Positions 59,947 to 64,000 of a stretch of DNA of 64,000 nt are shown piece by piece. The position numbers and the translations under genes are program-made. Positions within the stretch are counted from its first letter, which is position 1. Each line of letters starts with the position of its first letter. The notes beneath the pieces were generated by a model. It saw only the letters and a list, made by a program, of their open reading frames with translations, was not told the origin of the DNA and did no database searches. Where the stretch lies: positions 30,464 to 94,463 of the forward strand of contig DVHG01000002.1 of assembly GCA_018712345.1 (NCBI GenBank), in the 5' to 3' direction. This DNA comes from Candidatus Onthovicinus excrementipullorum (GTDB taxonomy: Bacteria > Bacillota > Clostridia > Oscillospirales > Acutalibacteraceae).

Positions 59947-60603
59947 CTATCCGATAATTTTCAGCAGCTGTGCAAAGCTGTCTGCACGGTAAGTTGCGCC
60001 GGCCTGCTTCAATTCCTGCACGCCGCCGTAGCCGAACGTCAGACCGATACTGTCCATCCCGGCGCCGCGGGCGCCCTCAATATCGTGCAGGCGGTCCCCG
60101 ATCATGACACACGATTCCAGCGGAACCGGTGTGCCCAGCGCCTGCTCCAGGCGAGCGTGCGCCGTCTCGATTACCTCGGCCTTTTTGGTACGTGAGCCAT
60201 CCAGGCAGCTGCCGCACACGGCGTCAAAACAGTCAGCAATCTTAAAGTGCTCCAAAATCTGCCGCGCAAACACCTCCGGCTTGGAGGTGGCCAGAGCGAT
60301 TGCCCTGTCCCGCGCTTTCAGTTCTGCCAGCAGTTCGGGCACGCCGGGAAGGAGCGCATTTTCCCAGATACCGCGGTCCGCAAAATACTCCCGGTATTTC
60401 CCTACGGCCTCCATGGCCTTTTCCCGGTCAAAGCCGTAAAACTGCATGAACGATTCATGCAGCGGCGGGCCGATAAAGGGGATCAGCTCCTCCAGCTCCG
60501 CATGGATGCCATACGAGTCAAGCGCATAGGCGACGGAGTTGGTGATGCCCTCTTTGGGGTCTGTCAGCGTCCCGTCCAGGTCAAAAAAGAGATACCGGTA
60601 CAT
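59947..60603 (-). CDS. HAD family hydrolase (phosphoglycolate phosphatase-like)
   Basis: YRYLFFDLDGTLTDPKEGITNSVAYAL...IALATSKPEVFARQILEHF...CVMIGDRLHDIEGARGAGMDSIGLTFGYG; start MYRYLFF at 60603. Confidence 0.94.
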   Translation of the reverse strand: MYRYLFFDLDGTLTDPKEGITNSVAYALDSYGIHAELEELIPFIGPPLHESFMQFYGFDREKAMEAVGKYREYFADRGIWENALLPGVPELLAELKARDRAIALATSKPEVFARQILEHFKIADCFDAVCGSCLDGSRTKKAEVIETAHARLEQALGTPVPLESCVMIGDRLHDIEGARGAGMDSIGLTFGYGGVQELKQAGATYRADSFAQLLKIIG

Positions 60604-60724
60604 AAAATCTCCCCCCGTTCTCCGCGATTGTACCACAGCAGGGGCACAATCACAAGTACCATTAGTGGATTTGGCAAATTGTTTTTTTACAAGAACAACT
60701 CCGCCACCGTCTCGCAATGGCACG

Positions 60725-60792
60725 AGAGGACAGAAAGTACGTCATTTGTCAGGCAGTTTGTCCGACTTGATCCACAGGTATTTCTGTCCTCT
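60725..60792. repeat. Inverted repeat at the edge of the AT-rich island
   Basis: AGAGGACAGAAA (60725-60736) and TTTCTGTCCTCT (60781-60792), perfect 12-bp arms, 44-nt spacer. Confidence 0.6.
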
Positions 60793-60822
60793 TGGTCGTA
60801 TGTGGGAACATATCATATTATT

Positions 60823-62619
60823 TTAATCATAAATTCCTTTTCCGAGACAACATTTTTTAAACTTCTTTCCGCTACCACAAGGGCATGGATCATTTCTTCC
60901 TACTTTTTTCTTCTTTATATCTGTACTTTTGATACCTGGATACTCATATGGAATACCATGTTTTTCAAAATATATTTTATCGATAAGGCTTGGACCATTA
61001 GGTGGGAAAAAAGCCGCACTATCTTTTATATGTTCCTTCAATTGCGAATCCAAAAAATATCCTTCTATAACATCCAGCTCGTCAGAAGATAAAACATTGA
61101 CGTGATTCTCTATTCGCCAAACAAGATAGTCAATAAAGTCCTGTGCCCCTTTATATAAGTATTTCAAAATTTCAATTATATTTTCAAAATCATGCCAATT
61201 ACACACCCACGGATACGGCTCATCTACATCTTTCTCTAATATTAACGATGTATTTACTGCCAGACCACCAAATTGATTCAGGGTAAGCACCAGTGGCAAT
61301 ATAGTTTTCCGTGAGATGTTTTGAATTTGAAATTTATTATTTTTATTCTCATACAAAACTACATTGTTTTGCCTTTCAATAAACTTTTTCAGGGTGATTG
61401 CCTGTGCATAGGCACCCCCAATCCCACTGTCCGAATGAAAATGATCAGTAATGCGCGTATATGCTTTTTGAGGATTAAAAAATGGCTCTCTAACTTTAGA
61501 AGCCTTTACCTCCGCTATCAAAATATAATCATGAAACTCAATTAATAGATCATGTTCTTTCGTTCCCCTCTCTTCACACACATTTGTATGATATATTGCC
61601 TGATCTCCAAAAACTCTTTTGAAATAGTCAAGAAATTGATTTTCCACAATTTCAGCTTTAATTTTTTTATATTTATCTGCAAATTTATTCTTCGGATTTT
61701 CCAAAACTTCAGTTATATAATTATAAATTGCATTTAATAAAAACTGTGGATGAACGATAAATAAAGTTTCTCCTTCATCAATCCAACAAAGCGGATGCTC
61801 CGCAAATGGATTTTTCCCATTATAATATAAAAAATCTCTTGCTTTTCTGTACAGCCCAAAAATAGTTAATAGCTTTTCTCCTTTTTCTTTTCCAAACTTT
61901 TCTCGTACCTTTGATGCCTTTATTGAATTTATTCCATCCATTGCATTTTGAAAATTATCCCTTGCCGGGCCTTGAGCGAATGCCATTAATCGCTCAAACT
62001 CTTTTTCAACATCAACTGCATAAGGATTAAAAGAATTCAAAAAATCTTTTAGATTGTTAATCGCATATATAGACGAATCCATCGCATCTTGAAATTCATC
62101 ACATATCAATTGATAAAAGGCAATATAATCCTCAACCCTTAGCCCTGTCAGATTTTCCAATTCTGAATCAAAAGGATTATACAGTATTCTAAGCAAATCA
62201 ACCGTTTGCTCTACATACCTTAATATCCCTGTATCAAAATAAGATATAAACGCCTCCATAGATACCAAATTTCGCTTTATATCATTAGGATCTGACGTCT
62301 TATCAATATCAAGAAAAGTTTTTATATATTCCAAGGTTATTTCTTGTACATCATTTTCTAATTCATTGTATATTCCACTTTCTTCATCTTGCGTAATGTG
62401 CCCATTACTTTTATCATCTGTACTCATAAGTAGACCGGCTAAGTAAGTGTATTGCTTCTGTGGCGAAATAAGTTCTGTTTTATTGAATATATCCGATTGT
62501 TCAGCAAAGTCTTCTGCCCCATTTGCAAAAGTAATAAAATGAATTCCAATCATCCCTAACAAATCACGTGTACCGATATTTTCCAGTTTATCTTTTAATA
62601 CTTTTATCTTTTCCTCCAT
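60823..62619 (-). CDS. Putative PD-(D/E)xK nuclease-like protein with C-terminal SEC-C zinc motif
   Basis: [26 protein letters not shown] (D...ExK core) and C-terminal [22 protein letters not shown]; start MEEKIK at 62619 with AGGAGA RBS. Confidence 0.75.
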
Positions 62620-62692
62620 ATGTTTTCTCCTTGCCAATAACTACATATCTTATCTTCCTTTTTCAATGGAAACAGCAGTATGCCGGGATCAT

Positions 62693-63559
62693 TTATATTA
62701 CCTTGCTTCCAGCTTTCTGCTGATTTTCAAATGTACTCCAGATAAAATCAACAAATGTAATGCTACTTCCAACTGCCAGCTTCGCATGGCGTTCTTCCAG
62801 TCCTTGAAAAGATGCACTTTTCCCATGTCCGCTACCAAAGGGATTCCTGATCTCTGCCAACTTTGTCGGAATTGCCCTTAAATTTCCTAAAACGGCTTTT
62901 ATAGCATCTGCCCCCTGATCTGTCTCATGTATATTGGCTGGTAGCAAGCTCAATGCACTCATTACTTTATTGGTAAGCTGAGGTACATCGTCATTTTTAC
63001 TCCATTCAATACCTAACTCGTCCAAAATCGTTTTACAACAACTCTCTATAAGCTCTTTTGCAAGTCCAATAGCATTTGTTGGATTCGTTGACTGCATAGA
63101 AACCATTAACTCTATTTGCTGAGACATATATTCACTTGAAAATTTACCTTTCAAGTTATCGGCCGTTTTAGCAATAGCAGATGAACCGCCTTCCAATCTA
63201 TCTATAATAGTCTTACACTTTTTATAGATTCTTGCGTATCTTTCATCGTATCTTGAAATGCTACTTCCCCAATACAAATCATCCTCATAATTTTCATTGT
63301 ACTCATATTCCATATTCTCTTCATAATAGTGAAATAAATCAGAAAGCAACTTAAACCTATTCTCATCGGATGCACTATTCAAGTATGCTATAAGAGACTT
63401 TCCTTTTGAAAGACCATACTTCGCACATAACGCTTCTCCTATGCTGTTTGTTGTAAACACATCAAAATCATTAGTTGAGAAGTTTAGAACATATCCGCTT
63501 CTATTAAACAGCATCAGAAATGTTCCTTCTTCCTGTTTCGTTATTACGGCTCCTGTCAT
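62693..63559 (-). CDS. Abortive-infection C-terminal (Abi_C)-like / HEPN-like protein
   Basis: STNPTNAIGLAKELIESCCKTILDELG...LGNLRAIPTKLAEIRNPFGSGHGKSASFQGLEERHAKLAVGSSITFVDFIWSTFE; RNPFGSGH fits the R-x(4-6)-H HEPN-type motif. Confidence 0.8.
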   Translation of the reverse strand: MTGAVITKQEEGTFLMLFNRSGYVLNFSTNDFDVFTTNSIGEALCAKYGLSKGKSLIAYLNSASDENRFKLLSDLFHYYEENMEYEYNENYEDDLYWGSSISRYDERYARIYKKCKTIIDRLEGGSSAIAKTADNLKGKFSSEYMSQQIELMVSMQSTNPTNAIGLAKELIESCCKTILDELGIEWSKNDDVPQLTNKVMSALSLLPANIHETDQGADAIKAVLGNLRAIPTKLAEIRNPFGSGHGKSASFQGLEERHAKLAVGSSITFVDFIWSTFENQQKAGSKVI

Positions 63560-63575
63560 AATACACTTTCTCTCC

Positions 63576-63803
63576 TTATTTATTGCTACCTATTTTTATT
63601 TTATATCCATCCGGCAACACAAACGCCTGCTCATATCCAACATCCAACGCCTCTGCAATCTTCGCCATTTCCTCGGAGGATACGGTACCACGCTGCAGTT
63701 TTTTATTAAAATTCTGTGGAGTCTGTCCAATCCGTCTGCAAAGTTCCGCAAGGCTGATATTCATTCTGTCACACAATTCTCTGATCATATCCGATGTTGT
63801 CAT
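63576..63803 (-). CDS. XRE family HTH regulator
   Basis: MIRELCDRMNISLAELCRRIGQTPQNFNKKLQRGTVSSEEMAKIAEALDVGYEQAFVLPDG. Confidence 0.92.
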   Translation of the reverse strand: MTTSDMIRELCDRMNISLAELCRRIGQTPQNFNKKLQRGTVSSEEMAKIAEALDVGYEQAFVLPDGYKIKIGSNK

Positions 63804-63828
63804 TTTCCACCTCCATCAGCATAGTACA

Positions 63829-63857
63829 ATTATAAACCCTATGGTTGATAAGCACAA
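63829..63857 (-). promoter_or_regulatory. Promoter for the XRE/Abi_C/nuclease module (minus strand TTGTGC-17 nt-TATAAT)
   Basis: -10 TATAAT = 63834-63829, -35-like TTGTGC = 63857-63852, spacer 17; GGAGG before the ATG at 63803. Confidence 0.6.
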
Positions 63858-63887: not shown

Positions 63888-63922
63888 AAAAAGCACCTTG
63901 CAGCCATTTCAAAAGCCACAAG
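63888..63922 (-). terminator. Terminator for the gene entering from the right edge
   Basis: Minus strand GTGCCTTGTGGC-...-GCTGCAAGGTGC-TTTTTT; 12-bp stem using G-U pairs. Confidence 0.6.
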
Positions 63923-63943
63923 GCACCGCATTCATTCTATTAT

Positions 63944-64000
63944 TTACCTCTCCACATCCACCTTTGCCCCAGATTTGAACTCCACCTCAAACCGCTCATC
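63944..64000 (-). CDS. Partial CDS, C-terminus ...DERFEVEFKSGAKVDVER* (product unknown; possibly serine recombinase tail)
   Basis: Open frame from the window edge to TAA at 63944-63946, followed by a terminator-like hairpin. Confidence 0.5.
   Translation of the reverse strand, partial: DERFEVEFKSGAKVDVER

Follow-up and report, generated by a model that had tools for sequence, protein, structure and literature searches.

A probable autorepressed cargo slot in a prophage-like element, with an Abi_C/AbiJ-like gene and a rare SEC-C/PD-(D/E)xK nuclease-type gene

Organization of the xre-abi-nuc cassette

The window analyzed here is a 64,000-nucleotide stretch of DNA whose end is also the end of its contig. 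Three collinear open reading frames, xre, abi and nuc, were confirmed on its minus strand in a region where GC content drops from 52–61% to 34–38% at ~60.8 kb, as an earlier reading of the letters alone (the sequence-only reading) had described. The first gene, xre (63576–63803, minus strand), encodes a 75-aa Cro/C1-type helix-turn-helix protein that matches Pfam HTH_26 (8.5e-11), which bears out its assignment as an XRE regulator, and is proposed to be an autorepressor. It is separated by 16 nt from abi (62693–63559, minus strand), which encodes a 288-aa Abi_C/AbiJ-like protein that has an N-terminal domain of its own, and abi is separated by 73 nt from nuc. The latter, the 600-aa gene of the sequence-only reading, corresponds to an open reading frame at 60823–62637 on the minus strand. 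The gene is real, but its start is more likely the ATG at 62619, with a GGAG Shine-Dalgarno sequence, which gives a 598-aa protein (60823–62619, minus strand) with a helical N-terminal half, a PD-(D/E)xK-like core and a SEC-C tail. All three genes are under purifying selection, as their dN/dS values are low throughout, at about 0.2 or less (0.06–0.08 for nuc, 0.02–0.11 for abi and 0.04–0.21 for xre).

Upstream of the cassette, a terminator with a 14-pair stem and a T run (63892–63927, minus strand), which is kept in relatives, marks the boundary with a large serine recombinase gene that is cut by the contig end. The last 58 bases of the window (63943–64000, minus strand) encode the C-terminal 18 codons and stop of this recombinase (DERFEVEFKSGAKVDVER), and these 18 residues are identical to the ending of the recombinase of a related locus, L011, while the homologue in L004 carries Resolvase/Recombinase Pfam domains. 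On the other side, nuc runs into a conserved element end (about 60711–60824, minus strand) that is common to the window, L004, L005, L007 and L011, where it follows different cargo. The sequence beyond this end is divergent and represents the host or another insertion site. Just past it, at 59947–60723, lies a gene for a HAD-like phosphatase, the upstream region of which probably holds the insertion site.

A conserved promoter and operator-like palindrome

Upstream of xre, the related loci share a conserved terminator followed by a TTGT-type -35 element, a 17-nt spacer with a palindrome in it and TATAAT. The window has the same footprint, in which the cassette promoter TTGTGC-17-TATAAT (63829–63857, minus strand) carries the operator-like AACC-N4-GGTT (63835–63846) in its spacer. 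The composite AACCN4GGTTTATAAT occurs once in the 64 kb and in none of 100 shuffles, and it is also found before xre in related loci. Three symmetric forms of the palindrome, AACC/GGTT, AATC/GATT and AACT/AGTT, occur among 15 sites, and when the arms were re-paired at random, 350 of 20000 trials were at least as symmetric as the real set, which lends modest support to a predicted dimer-bound operator. That the three genes are transcribed from a single promoter, as the sequence-only reading suggested, is plausible given the conservation of TTGTGC-17-TATAAT and its preceding terminator in relatives. A generic consensus promoter scan was uninformative on this point (13 promoter-like matches vs 13.0 expected) and omits this promoter because its -35 element is weak.

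The Abi_C/AbiJ-like protein

The Abi_C domain of the 288-aa protein (PF14355, 9e-23) scores 80.6 bits and passes the gathering threshold of 24. Its RNPFGSGH motif, which had been read as compatible with a HEPN signature, corresponds to R238-NPFGSG-H245 (residues 238–245; 62825–62848, minus strand), and the R and H of this R-x6-H motif are invariant in all 10 of the diverse Abi_C proteins compared, which came from Clostridia, Listeria, Alphaproteobacteria, Streptomyces and one E. coli record. At the level of sequence, this reading of the motif holds. The AbiJ model of PADLOC (1.7e-12) covers residues 163–280 only and shows no full-length similarity to the protein. Because the model matches the C-terminal half only, the protein is filed as Abi_C/AbiJ-like rather than as AbiJ proper. 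Its N-terminal half matches nothing in Pfam or in the PADLOC AbiJ model. The AlphaFold model, built from a shallow alignment, is all-helical with a pLDDT of 54 that falls below 50 around RNPFGSGH, and because this model is weak the HEPN assignment rests on sequence. Taken together, the 288-aa protein is probably a HEPN-type Abi_C protein and a probable RNase.

The probable SEC-C/PD-(D/E)xK nuclease family

The 17-residue putative active-site stretch of the 598-aa protein corresponds to residues 356–372. The core residues E326, E355-H356-D357 and E370-V-K372 (61504–61644, minus strand) are invariant at E326, E355-H356-D357 and E370-x-K372 in all six intact homologues aligned, whose identity ranges from 84% down to 33%. 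A profile that included the SEC-C part was swamped by other SEC-C proteins, and this part was trimmed. The family profile matched YraN, a PD-(D/E)xK family, with a P value of 5.4e-4 and the core residues in register, and none of 200 column-shuffled profiles reached this score. Weak NERD matches were found in four of the six family members, the best of which (2.5e-4) stayed under the Pfam cut-off, and a comparison with a NERD-only profile was likewise weak, with three of 200 shuffles equally good. In an AlphaFold model from a shallow alignment (pLDDT 37), beta strands are placed at the core, where pLDDT is ~30–35. Based on the conserved core, the YraN profile match and the weak NERD matches, we suggest that the 598-aa protein is probably a PD-(D/E)xK-type nuclease, in keeping with the active-site layout and SEC-C motif initially noticed.

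The SEC-C zinc motif (60844–60897, minus strand; 7e-10) is the only part of the protein that Pfam, PADLOC, NCBIfam and PHROGs name, and its PADLOC matches are confined to SEC-C parts of unrelated models. The motif is missing from the Exiguobacterium homologue, so the SEC-C tail appears dispensable for membership of the family. Full-length homologues are rare: those of L004, L005 and L007 are ~82–84% identical to the 598-aa protein, those of L012/L098 61%, those of L013/L099 ~35% and that of an Exiguobacterium plasmid ~33%. A PDB sequence search with profiles of both effectors returned nothing convincing, scans of viral contigs with the nuclease as single sequence and as profile gave no match, and neither did a scan of phage records. 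The family was not found named in the open-access literature searched, and the homologue set points to a rare, unnamed and undescribed nuclease family.

Another protein of similar layout is encoded beyond the element end of L005 (L005:11296–12849). It is at least 517 aa long, with a helical N-terminal half and a D-x(n)-K nuclease-like core, and may be another large nuclease.

Associations of xre, abi and nuc in other loci

Given its 16-nt spacing, XRE-first order, HEPN RNase-type partner and location in an integrated element, the XRE-Abi_C pair could be a type II toxin-antitoxin module that retains the element in the genome, with the nuclease as a passenger. Homologues of xre, however, precede DNA methyltransferases in L089–L091 and L093, and also front a metallophosphoesterase (L086), an SMI1/HNH protein (L087) and a 238-aa protein with a GIY-YIG protein (L088/L101); the cargo names at L086–L091 and L093 were assigned by our own inspection of the sequences unless backed by a search. 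In these loci the operator accompanies the XRE family, and Abi_C occurs without XRE in L006, L047 and L100. Because the XRE family fronts many cargos and Abi_C exists without it, the XRE protein is not considered a dedicated antitoxin; a dedicated XRE-toxin pairing was not found, and we regard the toxin-antitoxin explanation as unlikely.

The sequence-only reading had instead proposed that Abi_C and the nuclease act jointly in one abortive-infection operon, either by pairing an RNase with a DNase or by coupling a sensor to an effector. The three genes keep the same order, orientation and close spacing in the window, L004, L005 and L007, and they persist jointly in these four element copies at 80–84% identity. 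Both abi and nuc are under purifying selection, and this co-retention makes a functional link between them possible. The sequence-only reading had not recognized the combination as a named system, and no PADLOC system model matched both genes. Conserved pairing in other genomes, on which the proposal hinged, is nevertheless largely absent beyond these four related copies. The nuclease is found without this Abi_C in three other element types: in L098 (20 kb examined) it comes after Tn554-type recombinases and before a SIR2-STAND gene, in L099 (20 kb examined) it follows the tnsABCD-like genes of a Tn7-like element, and in L046 (~6 kb examined on each side) it is on a plasmid, with no transposition genes close by apart from an IS3. 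Conversely, Abi_C is found but the nuclease is missing in L006, where Abi_C adjoins bSEFIR (1.1e-99), in L008, in L010, where a truncated copy lies in type I RM-like surroundings, in L011, the nearest element, which has other cargo in the place of the nuclease, and in L047 and L100, where it lies within type III RM loci. As each effector is found without the other elsewhere, the loci compared do not support a fixed pairing, and a dedicated two-effector system seems quite improbable.

Several features of these neighborhoods were also recorded. The type III RM loci (L100:4519–16031 and L047:1972–11979) contain a PLD-SNF2-type helicase, a DUF4391-like gene, mod, Abi_C and res, and L100 also has a PDC-S32-like gene, the product of which has an N-terminus resembling that of the Listeria Abi_C protein. 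Next after the nuclease, L004 (8585–10273) and L005 (8847–10478) have a SIR2 gene, which has a weak CAP12/Pycsar TIR-like match, and the SIR2-STAND gene of L098 differs from it in build; SIR2 may be a recurrent neighbor of the nuclease, hinting at a different partner. Broken copies of abi were found in L011 (6001–6846) and L102 (12950–13600), where they are split, and in L010 (6001–6412), where the gene is truncated, while an in-frame stop divides the nuclease copy of L004 (6721–8520). Such breakage is what one would expect of costly cargo.

That the nuclease is instead an element-maintenance enzyme aiding transposition or integration, as its position ~0.5 kb or less from Tn554-type genes in L098, ~80 bp past tnsD in L099 and near the recombinase in the element family of the window might suggest, is very improbable, given that its carrier elements use unrelated transposition chemistry, the related elements L008 and L011 lack it, its plasmid copy is remote from transposition genes other than IS3, and cargo often adjoins transposition genes anyway.

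A probable exchangeable cargo slot

The nearest relative, L011, and the window share 95% DNA sequence identity over 1280 bp, from the recombinase to abi. Past abi it carries another pair of genes, one with a weak match to MADS mad2 and one for a GmrSD_N/NsnA-like protein, followed by the same element end. Since L011 keeps both flanks and carries different cargo, the segment after abi has been swapped between near relatives. Variable defence-type cargo between conserved flanks is found in the window, L004/L005, L007 and L011. The cassette is immediately preceded by a recombinase or integrase gene in the window, L004, L007 (as a remnant), L008 (tyrosine type) and L011, and in L097 and L101 a serine recombinase gene immediately precedes the xre-family gene. 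Defence-type genes under XRE control had been correctly recognized in the window; their setting as mobile-element cargo beside a recombinase had been missed.

Upstream, both L004 and L011 carry genes for a holin, an amidase and a recombinase, as prophages do. A search of the assembly recovered neither the remainder of the window's recombinase nor the amidase of L011; as the rest of the element is absent from it, the prophage nature of the element is taken from these relatives. A search for the empty insertion site in the single same-genus genome gave no match to the flank. Based on these results, the locus is probably a cargo slot under autorepression, next to the integrase of a prophage-like element, with two independent defence genes in it.

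Proposed mechanism and significance

Gene order, motifs, conservation, cargo exchange and the operator-promoter are seen directly in the sequences, and from them we propose how such a cargo slot may work. By sequence, it consists of the recombinase end, the terminator, the promoter with its operator-like palindrome, xre, abi, a variable segment (here nuc) and the element end. XRE dimers would repress the operon that encodes them by binding the palindrome between the -35 and -10 elements. The Abi_C/AbiJ-like protein, as a HEPN ribonuclease, would be kept inactive as long as its N-terminal domain receives no sign of infection, such as one arising from phage; on receiving it, the enzyme would cut RNA and stop the cell in abortive infection. 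The nuclease would be a separate one-gene effector, in which the helical N-terminal half may sense or gate, the PD-(D/E)xK core may cut DNA and SEC-C may be a zinc-binding docking tail. The two effectors would share the slot and the operon without needing each other, and the element would benefit because its host is shielded from competing phages.

More broadly, we put forward tentatively, as a nearly balanced call that falls a little on the doubtful side, that the SEC-C/PD-(D/E)xK protein founds an undescribed one-gene anti-phage nuclease family in at least four kinds of mobile elements and that, in elements of Clostridia, the palindromic promoter together with xre flags a general plug-in site for defence genes. 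If so, the operator-promoter plus xre would serve as a signpost for finding swappable defence slots in gut Clostridia, which could be scanned for further unknown systems, and the nuclease would be a new effector that can be put to the test, with its catalytic residues already named. One conserved autorepressor would then serve many defence genes, which bears on how newly acquired toxic cargo is tamed by mobile elements.

Comparison with known systems

In C-protein/XRE-controlled restriction-modification operons, a small HTH gene comes first and the operator is palindromic. The cassette described here shares with them the HTH-first order and a palindromic operator-like site, whereas the predicted regulated cargo is Abi_C and the nuclease instead. 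NERD and YraN (UPF0102) nucleases have core residues E, (E)xD and ExK in register with those of the 598-aa protein, which differs from them in its length of ~600 aa, its long helical N-terminal half and its SEC-C tail.

AbiJ was classed as a HEPN family in a survey of HEPN proteins, in which its N-terminal domains were proposed as infection sensors and forms lacking these domains were found to be commoner in RM operons (PMC3710099). The 288-aa protein shares with AbiJ the C-terminal Abi_C (putative HEPN) region, the R-x6-H motif and a distinct N-terminal domain, and relatives in RM operons were also found among the Abi_C proteins here; it differs in its unmatched N-terminal half and its XRE-fronted operon.

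Finally, defence hotspots of prophages and satellites are a known general kind (Rousset et al., 2022; PMC9122126), and the slot resembles them in its variable cargo between conserved element features. Unlike them, this putative defence slot has its own autorepressor-type xre and a conserved operator-promoter, and it lies in elements of Clostridia that carry large serine recombinases; an xre-operator slot of this kind was not found named in the open-access literature searched. What is already known is thus the prophage defence hotspot, and what appears to be new is one undescribed nuclease family.
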